Source: Pichia kudriavzevii (Eukaryota > Ascomycota > Pichiomycetes > Pichiales > Pichiaceae). From it: DNA of 64,000 nt. The stretch spans positions 1,054,001-1,118,000 of the forward strand of contig NC_042509.1 of NCBI RefSeq assembly GCF_003054445.1. The letters are read 5' to 3'. Positions 12,661 through 30,941 of the stretch are shown piece after piece (the stretch's first letter is position 1; every line of letters begins with the position of its first letter). The position numbers and the translations under genes are program-made. Under the pieces are notes generated by a model that was not told the origin of the DNA, did not search any database, and saw only the letters and a list, made by a program, of their open reading frames with translations.

Positions 12661-15600
12661 TTACATAGTCAGCATTTTGCCGCTCTTCAGTTTTTGTAAA
12701 AAATTGTCATATTCGATCTCAATCTCGTTCAAGTCAACGACTCTTTCACCTACTTCCTGAGGAGACCTCCTTATGATCCATTGGTCACCCCCTGGCAGAG
12801 TATGTAATAAGTTTATCAGCACAAGATAGTTAGTTTTCAATATATTGTAAGTCTCTTCAGAAATATTAGGAAGCTTGCAACCAACCACACTGTTGAACCT
12901 GTACAGAGACTCTACTGCACCTCTAAAATCGCCGTCTTTCAACCTAAGGGAATAACACACCCTGAAGTATTTCAAGGCTAATTTGGCATCCCCGGAACCT
13001 GATTCTAAAACCTCTTCACCCAAACCAACAATCAGTTCATCAACATGATCTAAATCATCAGAATAATCAAAGTCAATGATTAGTGAAAGCTTATTTTTTT
13101 GGAATAGTTTGTAAATAAACTTACGTAATGGTATGATTCTATACTGATGTTTCATAGATTTCAAGGATGAAAAGCTCAACTCGTACTCACCCAAACTCAA
13201 TGCTAACTCAAACACTTTAAGATAAATTTCATATTCTTTATCAGATCCAATCTCAATATGGGAAGTCAACGACTTAGATGCCTTTATTGCCAGTTCAAGA
13301 GCTTGAACGTAGCACTTCTTTGTTTCAAAAATTAAAGTTAGATTAAAGAAAAAATCAACAGGGTTATCCACTAAAATCAAGGATAAAACTTTGGAAATCG
13401 GCTCACATGAATCAACTTCGTTTTCTGGTGCCCTATAGGATGTGATTTCAGCAACATTGTCTCCAAAAAGTTTCTCTGCTTCTTCACCGTTTCCAGTCTC
13501 TAACATTATCAACCCGCGTAGAATTATGGTAATAGTGGACTCAGTTGGTAAGAAATTCAAGAACTCGTAGCCTGTTTGGGATTGCGCAGAGTGTACTAGC
13601 GATGAAACAACAAAGTAAACAAAATTTTTATTGCACAATTGTCCCAGAATATATGTGTTCAACATATTGATGGTATTGTTTTTAATGTAGACTCTAGGAA
13701 CTAATTTAGTGATGTATCTAACAACAAGATCATTTTCTACTAAAAGGTTAACTCTCTCCAGAAAAGCTATGTATTTAAATGATCCATATAATTTGGAGAA
13801 AAGAGCCCCAATAGGTTCCGTATAATCTAATGTAAGCAAGATCAGCATTAAGCCAAAAATGATTTTTTTTGCAACTAAGTTGTTCTGCAAGATTGAATTC
13901 TCAATTAACTTCTGGCATATTTCGGTGAAAGAAGAACTATTGTTCGGTATATAGCCTGTTGAATTATTGGTCAATAATCCTGATAAGAAATTAAATAGTT
14001 CTGAGGCATCATCAATATTAGATAGCTGATTGATAAGTTGTGAAACAATTTGTTCGTTTGCTATGTTAATGATATATTTGTCAAATAACTTAGACATGAT
14101 ACTTGCTATGTTTTCAATATCTCTGAAGGAGAGTAAATCCGACGTCATTTCATGTACAACCTTCTCATTATAACCCTTGGAATAATCAAGGATGAGGTCA
14201 ACTAGCTTCAGCAATTCTATTGTATTGATATCCTCAAAATTTTGCAAAACACATGCTTTTCTTTTGTTGATGCTGTTAAAATATAGGCTTTCGAAAGACG
14301 ACGAACTTTTTACAATGGAGTAATAATTTAGACCTTTCAATGCAATCAAGAAGGGATCATCGCTCAAATTCGAAACATCAAAAGAAATACTATAAACCTT
14401 CCCAATAGTTTTCATTTCAATATCTTGGCACGCCCCAGCAAACATAACCCAATCATCTTTCAGCCCGTCGACAGTTTTGCCATTGAACTCGACCAAATCA
14501 CGGACCTGGGTCATAAGATCATGCAACTTGCAGGAAGGAGAAACATTTTGATTGAAAATAGATAATGCTTTCTGGATAGTTTCAGTGGCATAATGCGACT
14601 GGATGAATCTTAGACTGAATTTGTTAATATCTGACGCTTCATCAAGTTCCTTCAAGTTTGATAAAAACTCACTATTTTTGATATCACTGTATTCCATCGA
14701 CGGTATACAGTTGGACCAATGAGCTGTTCTATTTTCATCATTTGCCAGTAGACATGATTGGTAGAAGGATGAATTTGAAAAAAACCAGGAAATCCAGAGC
14801 AGTAGGGAACCATCTTGGTTTTTCTTCATTATATAATCAATTGGAGACCAAATGTTGCTGTAATCAGGAGAAGTTAACTGCGAGACCAACTCAATTGAAA
14901 AATCATCTAAGGAGAATTTGAAAATGTTAATGTAGCAAATATCCAGCGACAAAAAGATTGTGATGTAATTATCCGACAAGCCTAAGATGGAATAGGGTAA
15001 TAAAGGTGACAATACAGCAGAATGTAAAGATCGGTCTAAATAATCATTAATCTGATATTCTTTTAACACAGCTGCGTGTGATAATGACCAAAATGCTAGC
15101 TTTTTGTCAACTGACACAGTCACAAATACATCATCTGTTATTTTCAACAAATCAATATAAGAGCTACTGGCAACTGAAAAGTTGTCGAAACTAATCATTG
15201 CTTGAGACTTCTTTGAACCGAAAAAAAATTTGGATTTAATACTGTTGAAATAAGAGTCAGTGACAAAGGGACGTATCACGAAATCGGCCTGAATTGAAGT
15301 TCGGGAAAGCAGTAAAAGCCCACCGTCCATAGTAGACAATAATAGATTCAACTGGTCTAAATTTTTCAAAAGAAGTGGTTTTCTTTGGACAAATGAATAA
15401 GGCATTGAGTATTTACACCAAGAATACACGTTCTGCATTTCCAAAGTCTGTTTGCCCAAAAAGACATTGACGTTCAAAGCCAGCGTGATTAATATATCTG
15501 TATCCATGATCATATCAACCACAACAACATTACCATCTTGCGTCACCGTGATACAGTTAGAAGCCACATTTGCTGGTAATTGGAAGGTGTACGAATTCAA

Positions 15601-15987
15601 AACTTCGTCGATTTGTTCATTGATTTGGATTGGAGAAATCGTTAGAATATCTGATGCCCCTAGGTCAGATGATCTTCCTATACTGTAAGAAAAGTTCAGG
15701 TCGATAGCACCGTCTACTTTAAAGTGAAAGAAGCGACCATAATGTGTTTCCAAGGGACTTAAGCTCGATTCGATGAAATCATCCCTCCTTAGTGGGGTTT
15801 TCTTAATGGCCTTGTCAATAGTTCTAGGCAAAGGCACGGTTTTGTTAGCGCCTTGAAAAGGAACGGTTACCTCCGAATATTTAAATGGAGTATCGGACAT
15901 ATCTGCTTCTTTCTGTCTGTCTGAACTATCCTCTGGGAAGTTCGAGTAACTTTTGGTTACACTTCGTTTCTCCTTGTTCACCATCAT
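12661..15987 (-). CDS. NUP120: Nup120/Nup160-family nucleoporin of the Y (Nup84) complex
   Basis: The 1,108-residue protein has the expected layout of Nup120: an N-terminal beta-propeller (roughly residues 70-500, with repeated short beta motifs such as LLLSTMDGGLLLLSR and DVFVTVSVDKKLAFWSL) followed by a long alpha-helical solenoid. The C-terminus GGDQWIIRRSP...LNEIEIEYDNFLQKL resembles Nup160/Nup120 ends. Nup120 is a scaffold arm of the nuclear pore Y complex. No membrane segment or enzymatic motif is seen. The first codon of the frame at 15990 is TTG, so I start at the ATG at 15987; an internal Met near residue 30 (MSDTPFKYSEVTV) is an alternative. The assignment rests on architecture and C-terminal motifs, not a computed alignment. 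Confidence 0.7.
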   Translation of the reverse strand: MMVNKEKRSVTKSYSNFPEDSSDRQKEADMSDTPFKYSEVTVPFQGANKTVPLPRTIDKAIKKTPLRRDDFIESSLSPLETHYGRFFHFKVDGAIDLNFSYSIGRSSDLGASDILTISPIQINEQIDEVLNSYTFQLPANVASNCITVTQDGNVVVVDMIMDTDILITLALNVNVFLGKQTLEMQNVYSWCKYSMPYSFVQRKPLLLKNLDQLNLLLSTMDGGLLLLSRTSIQADFVIRPFVTDSYFNSIKSKFFFGSKKSQAMISFDNFSVASSSYIDLLKITDDVFVTVSVDKKLAFWSLSHAAVLKEYQINDYLDRSLHSAVLSPLLPYSILGLSDNYITIFLSLDICYINIFKFSLDDFSIELVSQLTSPDYSNIWSPIDYIMKKNQDGSLLLWISWFFSNSSFYQSCLLANDENRTAHWSNCIPSMEYSDIKNSEFLSNLKELDEASDINKFSLRFIQSHYATETIQKALSIFNQNVSPSCKLHDLMTQVRDLVEFNGKTVDGLKDDWVMFAGACQDIEMKTIGKVYSISFDVSNLSDDPFLIALKGLNYYSIVKSSSSFESLYFNSINKRKACVLQNFEDINTIELLKLVDLILDYSKGYNEKVVHEMTSDLLSFRDIENIASIMSKLFDKYIINIANEQIVSQLINQLSNIDDASELFNFLSGLLTNNSTGYIPNNSSSFTEICQKLIENSILQNNLVAKKIIFGLMLILLTLDYTEPIGALFSKLYGSFKYIAFLERVNLLVENDLVVRYITKLVPRVYIKNNTINMLNTYILGQLCNKNFVYFVVSSLVHSAQSQTGYEFLNFLPTESTITIILRGLIMLETGNGEEAEKLFGDNVAEITSYRAPENEVDSCEPISKVLSLILVDNPVDFFFNLTLIFETKKCYVQALELAIKASKSLTSHIEIGSDKEYEIYLKVFELALSLGEYELSFSSLKSMKHQYRIIPLRKFIYKLFQKNKLSLIIDFDYSDDLDHVDELIVGLGEEVLESGSGDAKLALKYFRVCYSLRLKDGDFRGAVESLYRFNSVVGCKLPNISEETYNILKTNYLVLINLLHTLPGGDQWIIRRSPQEVGERVVDLNEIEIEYDNFLQKLKSGKMLTM

Positions 15988-16382
15988 CAACAGTGTATTA
16001 TTGCATCAATTCTATTGAAAGAAACCCTCTTTTCGACCTCATTAGAAATCGCGATTGTCCTTGTCTGTTTTTTTTTTTTTTTTTTTGCAATTCATTTTTC
16101 GTTCTTGTGACTTACAGTACTTTTTTTTTCCATTTAAAAGGCACGTTCGCTGAATTTGCAAAAGCTCTGGAACATCTTAAAATCTTCTTTTCGAGAAGAC
16201 AACAAATGGTTAACCCAAATCGGAATCAGCTATGTGTACGAGAATTCTCTGGGGGGGATTGCATTCTAAAATCATGATTCGATTATATGTGATTGGGAAT
16301 ACTGATGGCCAGGGGGCTATTTGGTTCAGATACCTTTTAGGGAGAATCAGTTTTAGAATTGTTTCCGGGGATTTTTGTTCCT
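15988..16382. promoter_or_regulatory. Divergent upstream region of the NUP120-like gene and the snoRNA cluster
   Basis: This 395-bp region separates the minus-strand nucleoporin gene from plus-strand SNR78. It contains a run of 18 T (about 16069-16086) and further T tracts, as is common in yeast nucleosome-poor promoters. The snoRNA precursor promoter must lie here if the cluster is transcribed as one unit; no clear TATA element was assigned. Confidence 0.4.
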
Positions 16383-16472
16383 GCAGACTGAAATGATGAT
16401 CACAACCGTAAATATTCAAACTAGAGTTTATGATATCTCATGATCTTAATTTGTTAACTGAAACCAGTCTGC
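16383..16472 (+). ncRNA. SNR78: Box C/D snoRNA snR78 (predicted 25S Um2421 guide)
   Basis: The C box ATGATGA is at 16393-16399, the D box CTGA at 16458-16461, and a perfect 8-bp terminal stem joins GCAGACTG (16383-16390) to CAGTCTGC (16465-16472). The guide TCAAACTAGAGT (16416-16427) lies ahead of a D' box ATGA (16430-16433) and is complementary to the 25S segment ACTCTAGTTTGA. Under the D+5 rule the base opposite A16425 is U2421, the S. cerevisiae snR78 target. It is the first member of the seven-gene cluster, as in S. cerevisiae. Confidence 0.88.
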
Positions 16473-16562
16473 TAGCTAGTTTTCTAGAGTACTGCGGAGA
16501 AGAAGTTTCTTGTTTGCAATACTCTTTTTTCTTTGACTATTTTGATTCTTTTACTCATTTAA

Positions 16563-16656
16563 AGTGTTCACATGATGACTAAACAAAAACAACATTAAGG
16601 AATTACCGGCTGATTTACCATGCTGAGAAATTTTGGCTGCTTACTGATGTGACACT
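16563..16656 (+). ncRNA. SNR77: Box C/D snoRNA snR77 (predicted 18S Um578 guide)
   Basis: The C box TGATGA is at 16573-16578, the D' box CTGA at 16610-16613 and the D box CTGA at 16644-16647. The terminal stem pairs AGTGT-T-CACA (16563-16572) with TGTGACACT (16648-16656), with one bulged T. The guide GGAATTACCG directly before D' complements the universal 18S 530-loop sequence CGGTAATTCC, and the fifth base upstream of D' faces U578, the snR77 target. Confidence 0.92.
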
Positions 16657-16784
16657 TTCTTTTATTTTTTTTTTTGTTCCTGCGAAATCGAATAGAACTA
16701 TAACATGATTTTTTGGAAAGGGTTCTGGATATTTTGTCATCATTTTATTTTTTTATTTCGTTTTTTTATTTTTTCTTTTTTTTG

Positions 16785-16892
16785 ATTCATTCAGATGAAG
16801 AAGTATAGCACTGGGCACTGATTACGTACATGAGAGTGACAACGCTTTATTGGTGGGCCTCAGAAACCCACCTTAACTGATTATGAATGAAT
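16785..16892 (+). ncRNA. SNR76: Box C/D snoRNA snR76 (predicted 25S Cm2197 guide)
   Basis: A perfect 9-bp terminal stem pairs ATTCATTCA (16785-16793) with TGAATGAAT (16884-16892). The C box is a variant (AGATGA, 16793-16798). D' CTGA is at 16818-16821 and D CTGA at 16877-16880. The guide AGCACTGGGCA (16807-16817) complements 25S TGCCCAGTGCT, placing C2197 opposite the D'+5 position. A second possible guide ahead of D has no target I recognise. Confidence 0.9.
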
Positions 16893-16986
16893 TATTTTTA
16901 CTTGTTTTTTTTTGTTGATTTTATGTTTATGAATGATTGAAGGTTCAATTTTTCAATTACACAGAGCTATGCTTTAAAGGGCCAAG

Positions 16987-17085
16987 AAATTCTCACTTGA
17001 TGATACTTTTAGATGACGAGTCAGATGTGTTGCACAATGCTGATAAAAACTTTTATTACTATTCATGCATTGCTGATGAGAATTT
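16987..17085 (+). ncRNA. SNR75: Box C/D snoRNA snR75 (predicted 25S Gm2288 guide)
   Basis: A perfect 9-bp terminal stem pairs AAATTCTCA (16987-16995) with TGAGAATTT (17077-17085). The C box TGATGA is at 16998-17003, the D' box variant CAGA at 17022-17025 and the D box CTGA at 17073-17076. The guide TTAGATGACGAG (17009-17020) complements 25S CTCGTCATCTAA, with G2288 at D'+5. Confidence 0.9.
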
Positions 17086-17175
17086 ATTGTTTATGTCTTT
17101 TTTTTGTTTCGTTTCTCCTGTTTGGTTTGATTGATACTTATTTCAGGTGAAATATGGTTTTTCAACATTAGATTG

Positions 17176-17258
17176 AAATCAGCTGATGAATATGAAAATA
17201 AAAAGACAAGCATATGTCTGATTTTACTTGAAGACATTTTTTTCATGTCTGATGATTT
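17176..17258 (+). ncRNA. SNR74: Box C/D snoRNA snR74 (predicted 18S Am28 guide)
   Basis: The C box TGATGA is at 17184-17189, D' CTGA at 17218-17221 and D CTGA at 17249-17252. A 6-bp stem pairs AAATCA (17176-17181) with TGATTT (17253-17258). The guide ACAAGCATATG (17206-17216) complements CATATGCTTGT near the 18S 5' end, placing A28 at D'+5, the snR74 target. Confidence 0.91.
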
Positions 17259-17332
17259 GATCAACCTTTTTTTTACAGTTTAGGAGTATCGACAAGGATG
17301 CCGATTACCTTTGAACTCACCTCTCCACTTGT

Positions 17333-17451
17333 TTTCTTTCGTATATGATGATTTGCACAACTCACGACGGTCAACTGCAATCCACTTTGTTGAGTGTGAT
17401 TTTTGATGATAATCCGGGTCTTACCACCCGTGCACCTGAAAACGAAAGAAA
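17333..17451 (+). ncRNA. SNR73: Box C/D snoRNA snR73 (predicted 25S Cm2959 guide)
   Basis: A 10-bp terminal stem pairs TTTCTTTCGT (17333-17342) with ACGAAAGAAA (17442-17451). The C box TGATGA is at 17346-17351, a D' variant CTGC at 17375-17378 and the D box CTGA at 17436-17439. The guide CTCACGACGGTC (17361-17372) complements 25S GACCGTCGTGAG, with C2959 at D'+5. At 119 nt it is the longest member. Confidence 0.88.
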
Positions 17452-17530
17452 CACTATTCTTGCATCTCACTGGTGCTTCAATTCTTCACTGCTTTCTTTG
17501 TCAGAGGACAAATGTGCGTGTGTGGATTAT

Positions 17531-17630
17531 ATACCTATGATGACAACATACCTAGTTTTGGAGTCCTTCTTTTGGGAGGTTCTGTGATATTCAAAACTAA
17601 TTCGATTTGCATGTCAGTCTGATTGGAATT
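17531..17630 (+). ncRNA. SNR72: Box C/D snoRNA snR72 (predicted 25S Am876 guide); ends approximate
   Basis: The C box TGATGA is at 17538-17543 and the D box CTGA at 17619-17622. The guide TCGATTTGCATGTCAG (17602-17617) complements 25S CTGACGTGCAAATCGA with one G-U pair or a species difference, placing A876 at D+5. The terminal stem is weak (GGATT at 17524-17528 with AATTC at 17627-17631, asymmetric), so the ends are uncertain. It is the last member of the cluster, as in S. cerevisiae. Confidence 0.84.
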
Positions 17631-17639
17631 CATTTAGTG

Positions 17640-18339
17640 TAGTACCAACCGAAATTTTTTTCAAAAATGTAGCCGTCCTGAACTATGAATGTAGAAAAAG
17701 ACTGAATGATTAAAGAATGAGTCAATAGAAGTAAGAATGGATTAAGCGTAGTATTTCAGTCGTGGGAAGTGGTGCATTTCTTCCAGACTGTCTAAAACGA
17801 GGTGGTTATCAAAAGCTCCATAAAGTCGGCATGTGAATCTTTCTAGAAGTCAAATAAGATTTTACAAGACTAAGCTGTCCTGTATTTTGCATGGGACAAG
17901 CAAGTTAAAGATGGAGTTATCCTGACTGTAACACTTCAAAAAAAATTTAAGTTTCCTACTACTAGCTATTTCTAGTGTATTGAACGATCTAGTTGACACA
18001 GGTTCTTTTATCACTCCACATGCTACGTATATTCTCCAGTCCCTAAAACATGAAATTTCCATCAAGGAATGTCAGTGCATATGCGAAAAGGAAATATCAT
18101 AATATGCAATACCTTGTCTCGGTCAAAGGTGATAACTTACTAATTGGATTTTTGCAATCAAATGTTTTAACAGCATCATGGGGAGGAATGGAGATTTTTT
18201 TCAGAGGTGATTCTATTTTTTGTACCTAAAAAAAAAGGAATTATTTCTCAGAGTAAGTGGCTACTAAACATGACGCAAAGTATGTCAGGAGACAGATCGC
18301 AAGGACAATGCCCAGTGTTAGTGTACATATACTATAAAA
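17640..18339. other. Gene-free stretch between the snoRNA cluster and a convergent regulator gene
   Basis: About 700 bp of A/T-rich DNA lie downstream of snR72 and of the 3' end of the convergent Zn2Cys6 gene. I find no open frame with family resemblance, no further C/D pair with a recognisable rRNA guide, and no repeat. Confidence 0.6.
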
Positions 18340-20709
18340 TTACAAAACAGCAGGTTCACGTAGTTTAGAGTCGTAGTTTCTTTCAAGTATGGAATAATAC
18401 TTGTAAAATGTATCATTTTTTGTGGTAGCAACAGTCCTAAATCTAAATATTAGGTTTAATATGTCTCTATTGACTTGTGAGTTGTCCAGTGTTTCACTTG
18501 GACTAACGTGGCTCTCCTTTTCCAGCTTGTTTATAGCAGACATTGTAGATATTAAGATATCTGTGGCATAGAAAACCATCATGTGTATCTGATCACTGAG
18601 GAACGCAAAATATGAATCGTCGTTAACTGAATCAATCAAATAAAGAATCGCCAGGGCATGCTTTCTTAACTCAGTCAATTCCTTCAAGTTGTTGAAATTC
18701 ATATTGAAAAAAGTATGAGGGTCCAGCTTTAAGCTTTTGATTTTCACAAGGATCTCCACAAAATGATAATCGATTTCAACAAACTGATTTGAAGCTTGTC
18801 CAAAGGTATCTTGCCATCTTTCCAACCACAAATTGATACCTTTTCTTAATAGTCTATATGGTTCATCTTCAAATAAGAACCTATAACAAATGAGATATAT
18901 GTGGATTTCACCTATAATCCTAAAATCAAAATTTGTGGCACTTGAGATATCCGACACTTCGACGGGCTTCAGTCTTTCGATGCTTATCCAGGACCGACGA
19001 CCATAAAATAGACAATACGCCAGGTGTACCAAAACTAAGGTGTTCCAGATTCTATGGAGTGTAAGAAAATTGAACTCTTCGTTATCCTCATACTCGTCAT
19101 CTTCGTCATCATCATTTTCATCATCGTACACATCACTTCCCTGTTCCTCATATTCGCCTTCTCCAGAACGATTGATAACATCATCATCATCATCGTTATC
19201 ATTTGCAGTATTTCTGCCAACTATTTTATTGCCACTCCCCGATGCATTATAGAGATTCTGGACGTTCAAATTTGAGCTGACCTTCTCCTTCATTTCCTCA
19301 TTATTAGCCTTCCATTGAGACTCGACTTCGGGACCGTACATTTGATCACCAAACCCATAATGGTTAATTTTTTCAAATAAAGTCAAGCCCACACCAGATA
19401 AGTGCCATCCATCAAGCAATAGTATTGGGTTTCCATTTTCAATTTCGTCGGTAGTCAAATCGCTCAAACCAATACAATATGCACCCAGGATAACTAGACA
19501 TTGAAGCTCTTCAAGACTTCCTGAATATGTTGAGTTTAGCCAATGAATTTCTTTGCAGACAATTTTATTCAGCTTATACCATATTTTCTGCTTTAATAAA
19601 GGGTCGCCATATTTTAAGCTCAATAAACAGGCAAGAGTTAATAATAAAGGACACCGTTTCCGCAGCCTAATAATTAACTTCCTTGTAGATATCAACGGTG
19701 GAAAAGATAACCACCGACCATATCTATCACGGAAAATATCTACCAACTGAACTGCTTGATTGAATGTTAATATTTTGGTAGTGATTATATCCTGATAAAT
19801 TGGGCGGAAAGAATGTAATGGATACAATTGCTGTTGAATGCATAATGGCAAGGAGATCGCCTGTTCTGTGCCAGAAATTTCTGTTGACAGATTAAGGAAA
19901 CTAATAGGAGAAAATGATAAAGACTGATTAGGTATGTTAGTATTATTTATTGGAGTCGATAATATCGGTAAAAGCTTCAGTAGAGCTTCATCACTGGAAA
20001 TATCTTTATCTGATTCACTGATTGAAGTCAACATCCTGTTATCGCTCCTCAATAAATGTAATATTTGTTTGACAGTAGAATCAATAGAGTCAATTTTTGT
20101 ACTCCTAGGATCAAATTCAGCATCGTTTATTGATGACATGTGATTAACTGTTGGAGTAGAATGGCAATTGTTCTGTTGGTAGTTCTGTGATGGAGAGTGG
20201 GATGATACAAAAGATTGGGATAATCGATGTGTAGATGTTGGGGGTATAGGATTGTTGTAGAAAAATTGATGGTGAACTGGGTCATTATACTTGGGATGAA
20301 ATTGCGGCTGACGTTCATAAGGGTTATTCTGTAACGTGCTAGCCAGGGATGGGAAGATGTGATTAGAGTTGGATTGCTCGTATTGATATTGGGATGGCTG
20401 CGGAGACGGGAGTTTGGAATAAGATAAACTTGATTGACGTGTCACCGGCTGTGATGACAGCTGTGTGACAGGATTAATGGAATTATTATGATTCGAATTG
20501 AGATTCACATTGAGAATGGGGAATTCATTCCTACGGCCCGTTTCTGACAATAATGAGCAATCCAGCTTCAGAGATAAACACCGTAGACAGGCAACACTTT
20601 CATCCGAGCGTAAGCATCTTGTTTTCTGTTGTCTACAAAATGTACAAGCTTTGGAAGCTCTTGTGTGAGCTCTTCTCCTCTTCTTCTGGACCCCATTTTC
20701 ATCCGCCAT
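18340..20709 (-). CDS. Zn2Cys6 (fungal binuclear cluster) transcription factor
   Basis: The 789-residue protein has an N-terminal Zn2Cys6 domain with cysteines at 22, 25, 32, 41, 44 and 51, preceded by a basic KKRRRAHTRASKA segment. A long Ser/Gln/Asn/His-rich region follows (about 60-230). The middle and C-terminal parts resemble a fungal regulatory (middle homology) region. An acidic island near residues 505-560 is rich in Asp/Glu and may act in activation. The frame reaches 20739 only through GTG, so the ATG at 20709 (MADENGVQ) is used. I do not recognise the orthologue. The upstream region contains closely spaced CGG triplets (20909-20925), the kind of sequence such factors bind. Confidence 0.85.
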   Translation of the reverse strand: MADENGVQKKRRRAHTRASKACTFCRQQKTRCLRSDESVACLRCLSLKLDCSLLSETGRRNEFPILNVNLNSNHNNSINPVTQLSSQPVTRQSSLSYSKLPSPQPSQYQYEQSNSNHIFPSLASTLQNNPYERQPQFHPKYNDPVHHQFFYNNPIPPTSTHRLSQSFVSSHSPSQNYQQNNCHSTPTVNHMSSINDAEFDPRSTKIDSIDSTVKQILHLLRSDNRMLTSISESDKDISSDEALLKLLPILSTPINNTNIPNQSLSFSPISFLNLSTEISGTEQAISLPLCIQQQLYPLHSFRPIYQDIITTKILTFNQAVQLVDIFRDRYGRWLSFPPLISTRKLIIRLRKRCPLLLTLACLLSLKYGDPLLKQKIWYKLNKIVCKEIHWLNSTYSGSLEELQCLVILGAYCIGLSDLTTDEIENGNPILLLDGWHLSGVGLTLFEKINHYGFGDQMYGPEVESQWKANNEEMKEKVSSNLNVQNLYNASGSGNKIVGRNTANDNDDDDDVINRSGEGEYEEQGSDVYDDENDDDEDDEYEDNEEFNFLTLHRIWNTLVLVHLAYCLFYGRRSWISIERLKPVEVSDISSATNFDFRIIGEIHIYLICYRFLFEDEPYRLLRKGINLWLERWQDTFGQASNQFVEIDYHFVEILVKIKSLKLDPHTFFNMNFNNLKELTELRKHALAILYLIDSVNDDSYFAFLSDQIHMMVFYATDILISTMSAINKLEKESHVSPSETLDNSQVNRDILNLIFRFRTVATTKNDTFYKYYSILERNYDSKLREPAVL

Positions 20710-30020: not shown

Positions 30021-30941
30021 TTATATAAAGTTAACACTAATGTCCTCAACTTTAGATGTAATAAGCTTTCTGCTTTCTATTAGTTTCAAATCTGGAATGT
30101 AGAGCTTACCATTGACAAGTTTCTGAGTTTTGGATTCATTGGACACGATAGCATAACTCAATTTCAGAACTGACTCGACGACTGAAACTGTTTTACCCAA
30201 AGCGTCTGAAAGTTTCCTGGTATTGAAATATTCATCTGTCAGTAATCCCAAAAATAAATCACCAGAGCCAGAAAAGAGAGCATCGATTTCATCTACTTTG
30301 TAATAAAACGTGCTCTTGGCATCACTGCCAATACAATATAATGAACCACTGATATCTACAGAAGTAACAACCACATTTCTGATTGAGGAGTACTTTTTGA
30401 AAAAAATGTCAAGTGACTTCGAAAGAGAATCCCATGAGGCAATCTTAACACCTGTTAATTGTTCCATTTCAAACCCATTGGGCGTTAGTACATCAATTTT
30501 GTACTTATTTAATGATAAAAAATGCTCGTATCTAGCGGGGATTTTTGGGTCAACGTATACCCTTCCATTGTCCCCCAATATTGGATCCATTACCACAATT
30601 TCTTTGCCATTGAATGCAGGCAGGATTTCGTTCCATAAAACATCTAAATTGGATTCGCTTGCAACATATCCGACTATCAACGCATCGTAATCCTTTAACA
30701 TAGTTTGATCTTTCAAACCTTGGAAAATATCACTGATTGTATTCGAATCTGTTTTTGATCCTTTTAGTTTCCCATGTCCTGCATGGTTTGACAAATTTGT
30801 CGTATTAATTGTATCAACATTCCAATTTCTTAAATTTAGGGGGAATTGAATAGAATCATTCCCCACGTGACCATGCACAACATGTGAGGATATGCTTAGG
30901 ACGTTTCTGGTTGGTACGATATCTTCCAAAGTGCGATTCAT
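30021..30941 (-). CDS. Pyridoxal kinase (Bud16/Bud17 family)
   Basis: The 306-residue protein belongs to the PdxK branch of the ribokinase fold and should phosphorylate pyridoxal, pyridoxine and pyridoxamine to make vitamin B6 coenzymes. Visible blocks are VLSISSHVVHGHVGNDSIQFPL near the N-terminus (substrate site), VVMDPILGDNGRVYVDP in the middle, LTPNGFEMEQLTGV, and the anion-hole/catalytic region SGSGDLFLGLL, where GSGD supplies the catalytic Asp. Length matches Bud16 and Bud17 (about 312-317). The SHVVHGHVGN motif looks nearer Bud16, but I do not decide between them. It is convergent with RAD18, 47 bp apart. Confidence 0.88.
   Translation of the reverse strand: MNRTLEDIVPTRNVLSISSHVVHGHVGNDSIQFPLNLRNWNVDTINTTNLSNHAGHGKLKGSKTDSNTISDIFQGLKDQTMLKDYDALIVGYVASESNLDVLWNEILPAFNGKEIVVMDPILGDNGRVYVDPKIPARYEHFLSLNKYKIDVLTPNGFEMEQLTGVKIASWDSLSKSLDIFFKKYSSIRNVVVTSVDISGSLYCIGSDAKSTFYYKVDEIDALFSGSGDLFLGLLTDEYFNTRKLSDALGKTVSVVESVLKLSYAIVSNESKTQKLVNGKLYIPDLKLIESRKLITSKVEDISVNFI

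Follow-up and report, generated by a model that had tools for sequence, protein, structure and literature searches.

A putative snR78-snR72 box C/D snoRNA cluster in Pichia kudriavzevii, apparently unspliced and with AGNN hairpins in its spacers

The analysis was carried out on a window of 64,000 nucleotides of Pichia kudriavzevii DNA (contig C4, 1054001-1118000), and searches of the genome covered 10.79 Mb in five contigs. All positions are those of the window unless another locus is named. The snoRNA interval occupied 16383-17631 of the plus strand, where seven putative box C/D units in a single orientation were located between two protein genes. The neighbouring genes and the units, with the rRNA site assigned to each guide in S. 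cerevisiae numbering, were as follows.

12661-15987, minus strand: NUP120, upstream neighbour, divergent from the cluster
16383-16472, plus strand: snR78 unit, guide for 25S U2421; box C at 16393, box D' (ATGA) at 16430, box D at 16458
16561-16658, plus strand: snR77 unit, guide for 18S U578; box C at 16572, box D' (CTGA) at 16610, box D at 16644
16784-16892, plus strand: snR76 unit, guide for 25S C2197; box C (ATGAAGA) at 16795, box D' (CTGA) at 16818, box D at 16877
16987-17085, plus strand: snR75 unit, guide for 25S G2288; box C at 16998, box D' (CAGA) at 17022, box D at 17073
17173-17264, plus strand: snR74 unit, guide for 18S A28; box C at 17184, box D' (CTGA) at 17218, box D at 17249
17332-17451, plus strand: snR73 unit, guide for 25S C2959; box C at 17345, box D' (CTGC) at 17375, box D at 17436
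17530-17631 (ends approximate), plus strand: snR72 unit, guide for 25S A876; box C at 17537, box D at 17619, guide abutting the 5' side of box D
18340-20709, minus strand: Zn(2)Cys(6) regulator, downstream neighbour, convergent with the cluster

The preliminary description had placed the units between a nucleoporin gene and a convergent regulator, and both flanks were recovered as the minus-strand genes for Nup120 and a Zn(2)Cys(6) protein. Among nine relatives, the Nup120 of Pichia membranifaciens was 45% identical. The interval had also been described as protein-free and blank under gene-only annotation, and in agreement with this no ATG-initiated ORF of at least 100 aa was found between 16277 and 18340. 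A 130-aa ORF (15885-16277, plus strand) overlapped the start of NUP120 on the opposite strand and looked spurious. The Zn_clus match of the Zn(2)Cys(6) protein was barely significant (22.1 bits, cut-off 21), and the protein contained a long acidic run rich in Asp/Glu. A pseudouridine synthase gene (PF00849, 24547-25950), another RNA-modification gene, was located 7 kb from the cluster, which was probably a coincidence.

The claim of C and D boxes in every unit was borne out. Box D was CTGA in all seven, and box C was the full RTGATGA in four (snR78, snR77, snR73 and snR72) and a variant in three, namely TGATGA lacking the initial purine in snR75 and snR74 and ATGAAGA in snR76. The D' boxes associated with the guides were CTGA in snR77, snR76 and snR74 and degenerate in snR78 (ATGA), snR75 (CAGA) and snR73 (CTGC), while the guide of snR72 was paired with box D, not D'. 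The snR78 unit was closed by an 8-bp terminal stem (16383-16390/16465-16472, duplex of -17.0 kcal/mol), and the duplexes of snR77, snR76, snR75, snR74, snR73 and snR72 were calculated at -11.9, -11.8, -14.1, -7.1, -12.2 and -7.2 kcal/mol, respectively. Good terminal stems had been claimed for most units, and this held as "most", not all: the stems were located no more than a few bases from the boxes in six of the seven (overall range -7.1 to -17.0 kcal/mol), and snR72 was weak, with its duplex away from box D.

An Rfam search had been proposed as a check, and its outcome was divided: six of the seven units were matched, three of them below the gathering score, and snR72 was not. The snR76, snR75 and snR73 units scored above gathering (RF01209, 77.8 bits; RF01185, 64.1 bits; RF01207, 51 bits). 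The snR78 unit (RF01176, E 0.002, 36.6 bits), the snR77 unit (RF01181, E 6.4e-5, 47.1 bits) and the snR74 unit (RF00086, SNORD27, E 4.4e-7, 48.7 bits) did not reach gathering scores of 48, 50 and 52; SNORD27 is presumably the human counterpart of snR74. For the snR72 unit, no Rfam family was found at E<=1 in a permissive search, and its assignment was made because of its C/D boxes and 16-bp guide. Since Rfam at the gathering score named only three of the seven units, annotation at that score would miss the other four.

The guide search was performed on both strands of the 64-kb window with seven S. cerevisiae rRNA segments, not drawn from a database record, in place of P. kudriavzevii rRNA; up to four pairs on the 5' side of the target were allowed, per the D/D'+5 rule, and the four best placements per target were considered. 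Against these S. cerevisiae segments, an antisense element of 10-16 bp at D/D'+5 of the expected site was found in every unit, as had been claimed for these known methylated bases. For five of the seven targets (those of snR76, snR75, snR74, snR73 and snR72), the top one of the four best placements fell in the expected unit. Their guides, measured on these segments, were 11 bp in snR76, 12 in snR75, 13 in snR74 and 12 in snR73, and the snR72 guide of 16 bp with one G-U was the longest of the seven and the best placement across both window strands. The 13-bp guide of snR78 tied for first with a 14-bp minus-strand site that contained two G-U and was followed by TCAA. The snR77 guide (10 bp, no G-U) tied for second on score among the best four placements and was the only one of them with CTGA next to it; the top placement for this target, at 30243 on the minus strand, contained two G-U and was followed by CAGA, the form accepted as D' in snR75. 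Beside the snR76 guide, a CAGAAA 3' of the guide (unit region 16790-16884) could pair with TTTCTG beside the 25S target in the S. cerevisiae segment used, a possible accessory pairing. Six rRNA probe strings gave no match in the chromosome ends at the sites given in the accessible part of PMC6053246. The assignments made here agreed with those for S. cerevisiae snR78, snR77, snR76, snR75, snR74 and snR72 in the available text of PMC5199042, and snR73 is directed to 25S-2959 in that of PMC8307265.

Boxes near the ends, a terminal stem and at least 10 nt of rRNA antisense at D/D'+5, as expected of box C/D snoRNAs, were thus found here, and the seven named snoRNAs lay on one strand in the order expected of cluster I. 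Seven same-strand units at these positions had been proposed from the outset, and this was upheld by box pairs on the plus strand and by Rfam matches in six of seven. Likewise, Rfam matches together with guide positions confirmed that the order along the plus strand, snR78-77-76-75-74-73-72, equals that of S. cerevisiae SNR78-77-76-75-74-73-72. These results supported the assignment of the seven units to snR78 through snR72, with the target sites first named for them. As judged from sequence, the interval is orthologous to the fungal "cluster I" (snR78-snR72), a known kind of locus. A guide-RNA cluster that gene-only annotation leaves blank, and that Rfam at gathering finds in part (three of seven), is added in this way.

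Some of the units, above all snR72, might have decayed and no longer be functional guides. The missing Rfam match and weak terminal stem of snR72 and the short, 10-bp guide of snR77 were in keeping with such decay, and in the available text of PMC5033589 snR72 has been lost or relocated in other species, among them C. parapsilosis, where it lies outside cluster I. However, snR72 retained perfect C and D boxes together with the longest guide of the cluster, and decay was considered very unlikely.

Rnt1 recognises stem-loops with AGNN tetraloops and frees polycistronic snoRNAs (PMC13183374, available text), and the spacers between the units were inspected for such hairpins. The first scan covered AGNN loops on stems of at least 6 pairs in 16000-18200 and gave 11 hits. 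Seven of these were a single hairpin in the leader and one per spacer, and the remaining four (16488, 17577, 17714 and 18192) were weak, at -1.0 kcal/mol or above. The seven candidates were as follows.

16302-16323, plus strand: candidate RNase III hairpin of the leader, AGGG loop at 16311-16314
16486-16525, plus strand: RNase III-type hairpin in spacer 78-77, AGTT loop at 16504; in the best fold, 16 pairs
16682-16761, plus strand: RNase III-type hairpin in spacer 77-76, AGGG loop at 16719; in the best fold, fold energy z -0.3
16930-16955, plus strand: core of an RNase III-type hairpin in spacer 76-75, AGGT loop at 16941; in the best fold, 17 pairs
17136-17158, plus strand: weaker RNase III-type hairpin in spacer 75-74, AGGT loop at 17145; from the scan
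17277-17317, plus strand: RNase III-type hairpin in spacer 74-73, AGGA loop at 17295; in the best fold, 16 pairs
17497-17512, plus strand: core of an RNase III-type hairpin in spacer 73-72, AGAG loop at 17503; in the best fold, 6 pairs

In the fold test, the sequences between terminal stems were folded without constraint and an AGNN-capped hairpin of at least 5 pairs was counted in the best fold. Such a hairpin was present in five of the six spacers against 0.048 expected from 500 dinucleotide shuffles each, an excess with P of about 1e-11, which is nominal because the limits of the spacers and the minimum number of pairs were chosen once the first scan had been made, and because the shuffle frequency of one spacer, 0/500, was entered as zero. 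Outside the cluster, 0.8-1.5% of background tiles contained an AGNN hairpin of at least 6 pairs (for example, 12 of 1489 plus-strand tiles of 85 nt). Most spacers were no more stable than their shuffles (z -0.2 to -2.1), and the signal therefore lay in the identity of the loop, not in stability. The hairpin at 17145 was not in the best fold of its spacer (17087-17168) and came within 0.3 kcal/mol of the best in a 94-nt piece. The leader hairpin appeared in the best fold of a centred 94-nt piece (-21.8) and was absent from that of 16270-16382; it depended on how the sequence was cut and was a weaker candidate than the spacer hairpins. No AGNN hairpin was found in the 3' tail (17640-17760). Rnt1 is described as cutting about 14 nt 5' and 16 nt 3' of the loop (PMC13183374, available text). 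By arithmetic from this published distance, the positions 16 nt 3' of each loop lay in front of the respective unit, and the mature 5' ends could then be reached by trimming.

Splice signals were then considered on the sense strand. No donor of the forms GTATGT, GTAAGT, GTACGT, GTATGA or GTTTGT, and neither TACTAAC nor CTAAC, was found on the plus strand of 15900-17700. In 15988-17640 (plus strand) there were zero boxes within one mismatch of TACTAAC, against a mean of 2.3 in 152 window pieces of the same length, and hence no donor-branch pair. Donors within one mismatch of GTATGT numbered three, against a mean of 5.4 in the same kind of pieces.

16063, plus strand: donor-like GTCTGT, one mismatch to GTATGT
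17341, plus strand: donor-like GTATAT, one mismatch to GTATGT
17518, plus strand: donor-like GTGTGT, one mismatch to GTATGT

Weaker TACTRAY sequences were present at 16300 and at 16642, the latter overlapping box D of snR77. Canonical signals were used elsewhere in the genome, as at locus L016, where GTATGT at 1517 and TACTAAC at 1685 preceded a 106-aa ORF that we take to be RPS25-like. For the genome of P. kudriavzevii, 205 introns are reported in the available text of PMC6053246. By these searches, the cluster had no recognisable intron signals on its sense strand.

The snoRNAs could nevertheless come out of introns that are spliced from a non-coding host transcript, as in Candida, if the splice signals had become too degenerate to recognise. 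Cluster I is intronic in Candida and in most other fungi surveyed and unspliced in S. cerevisiae and its close relatives, according to the accessible parts of PMC3596301 and PMC5033589, and the weak TACTRAY and donor-like sites speak for such a reading. Against this, the cluster held no searched donor variant and no TACTAAC, CTAAC or one-mismatch TACTAAC box on the plus strand, and its spacers were occupied by AGNN hairpins; release from introns was judged most unlikely. A chance gathering of motifs resembling C/D boxes in an A+T-rich spacer, for which the frequency of short boxes might speak (20 CTGA on the plus strand of 15900-18340), was rejected as virtually impossible, being refuted by covariance-model matches reaching E 2e-17, by guide placement and by the order of a known cluster.

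Enzymes for release from the hairpins were sought with the RNase III profile PF00636, which detected three loci in the genome. Locus L003 encoded a 701-aa ORF with RNase_3_N, RNase III and one dsRNA-binding (dsrm) domain, whose best PDB matches were 7dey (RNase III, E 7.1e-41) and 5t16 (Ribonuclease 3, E 6.1e-39); we take PDB 5t16 and 4oog to be S. cerevisiae Rnt1. We infer that L003 is the Rnt1 candidate, with orthology read from the domain layout. Locus L002 (776 aa), a second candidate, contained two dsrm stretches, and its best matches were the RNase III PDB chains that L003 matched, with the match to K. polysporus Dcr1 ranking below them; a Dcr1-like role, that of the budding-yeast Dicer, would be a guess. 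Locus L004 fitted weakly to the mitochondrial mL44, below the family cut-off. In C. albicans, DCR1 is described as maturing rRNA and spliceosomal RNA as well, which permits the loss of RNT1 (PMC5499181, available text).

An orthologue of cluster II was also detected in the same genome, with snR55 and snR61 in tandem (L016:2436-2713, contig C1) 3' of the 106-aa RPS25-like ORF. Within 5 kb around this pair, neither snR57 nor another third snoRNA gave an Rfam match at E<=0.05. By eye, the spacer between snR55 and snR61 formed a hairpin capped by CGTT; it gave no AGNN hairpin in the scan, and one AGGG hairpin was located 5' of snR55. The idea that every cluster spacer of the genome carries the AGNN pattern was rejected on account of this snR55-snR61 spacer.

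Spacer AGNN hairpins (five of six best folds), the absence of recognisable splice signals and a Rnt1-like gene, the sequence features of the unspliced, Rnt1-processed form, were found together. Release by RNase III and exonucleases rather than by splicing was therefore the best supported reading, as a prediction from sequence. Rnt1-type processing had been proposed in the preliminary description with no sequence evidence offered, and these three features now provide some. A single non-coding plus-strand transcript would start in the 0.4-kb divergent region beside NUP120. A promoter motif scan of 15988-16400 gave partial matches only (TGTGACT, Homol-D-like, at 16106; CCCTAA at 16342 and TATAA at 16287, both minus strand). 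A nuclear RNase III of the Rnt1 type would cut this transcript at the AGNN-capped hairpins between the snoRNAs, exonucleases would trim the products to ends shielded by bound C/D proteins, and the seven mature snoRNPs, with Snu13, Nop56, Nop58 and Nop1 as their predicted proteins, would guide 2'-O-methylation at the sites listed above. Single transcription, cleavage, trimming and methylation are inferred steps, and taken as a whole, an orthologous cluster I that is made as one transcript, cleaved by a Rnt1-type enzyme, trimmed by exonucleases and used as seven methylation guides was considered highly probable. For S. cerevisiae SNR78-SNR72, Rnt1 cleavage and Rat1/Xrn1 trimming are described in the available text of PMC5033589 and PMC13183374.

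In the NCBI taxonomy, Pichiales and Serinales (Candida) belong to Pichiomycetes and Saccharomyces to Saccharomycetes. Since Candida, of the same class as Pichia, has an intronic cluster I, the switch to an unspliced cluster may have been independent of Saccharomyces, and an ancestrally intronic cluster I would mean two or more origins of the unspliced form. Intron loss in these snoRNA clusters is said to have been treated by Mitrovich et al. in 2010. We would give even chances to the proposal that Pichiales, independently of Saccharomyces, converted an ancestrally spliced host gene into an intronless polycistron cut by RNase III, with an AGNN hairpin acquired in all or almost all spacers and two RNase III genes of nuclear type retained, one of them Rnt1-like and the other perhaps Dicer-like. 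If true, the release machinery changed convergently while gene order and guides stayed frozen. The Pichia guilliermondii of one published survey is presumably Meyerozyma, on the Candida side. The species list of that survey, in its accessible text (PMC3596301), names no Pichiaceae, and no description of cluster I in Pichiaceae was found in the literature examined, which included the available text of PMC8476143, PMC12063151 and PMC5499181. The locus shows that a cluster I which is apparently unspliced and of the RNase III type also occurs beyond Saccharomycetes, and it is a test case for snoRNA release moving from splicing to RNase III.

Compared with known systems, the cluster differed in several respects. 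Neurospora and other filamentous ascomycetes have an orthologous cluster that is all intronic, according to the available text of PMC3596301, whereas that of P. kudriavzevii is apparently unspliced. The clusters of Candida albicans and C. parapsilosis consist of orthologous snoRNAs, and the Candida transcript is spliced at consensus 5' sites and TACTAAC branch sites (PMC5033589 and PMC3596301, available text), whereas no such signals were found in P. kudriavzevii. With regard to known snoRNA families, the snR78, snR77 and snR74 units scored below Rfam gathering. Compared to S. cerevisiae, the snR77 guide was 10 bp on the 18S segment used, and the flanks were NUP120 and the Zn(2)Cys(6) gene, from which we take the neighbours of S. 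cerevisiae SNR78-SNR72 to differ. With this S. cerevisiae polycistron, the P. kudriavzevii cluster shared the seven snoRNAs, their order, their target sites and, apparently, the lack of introns.
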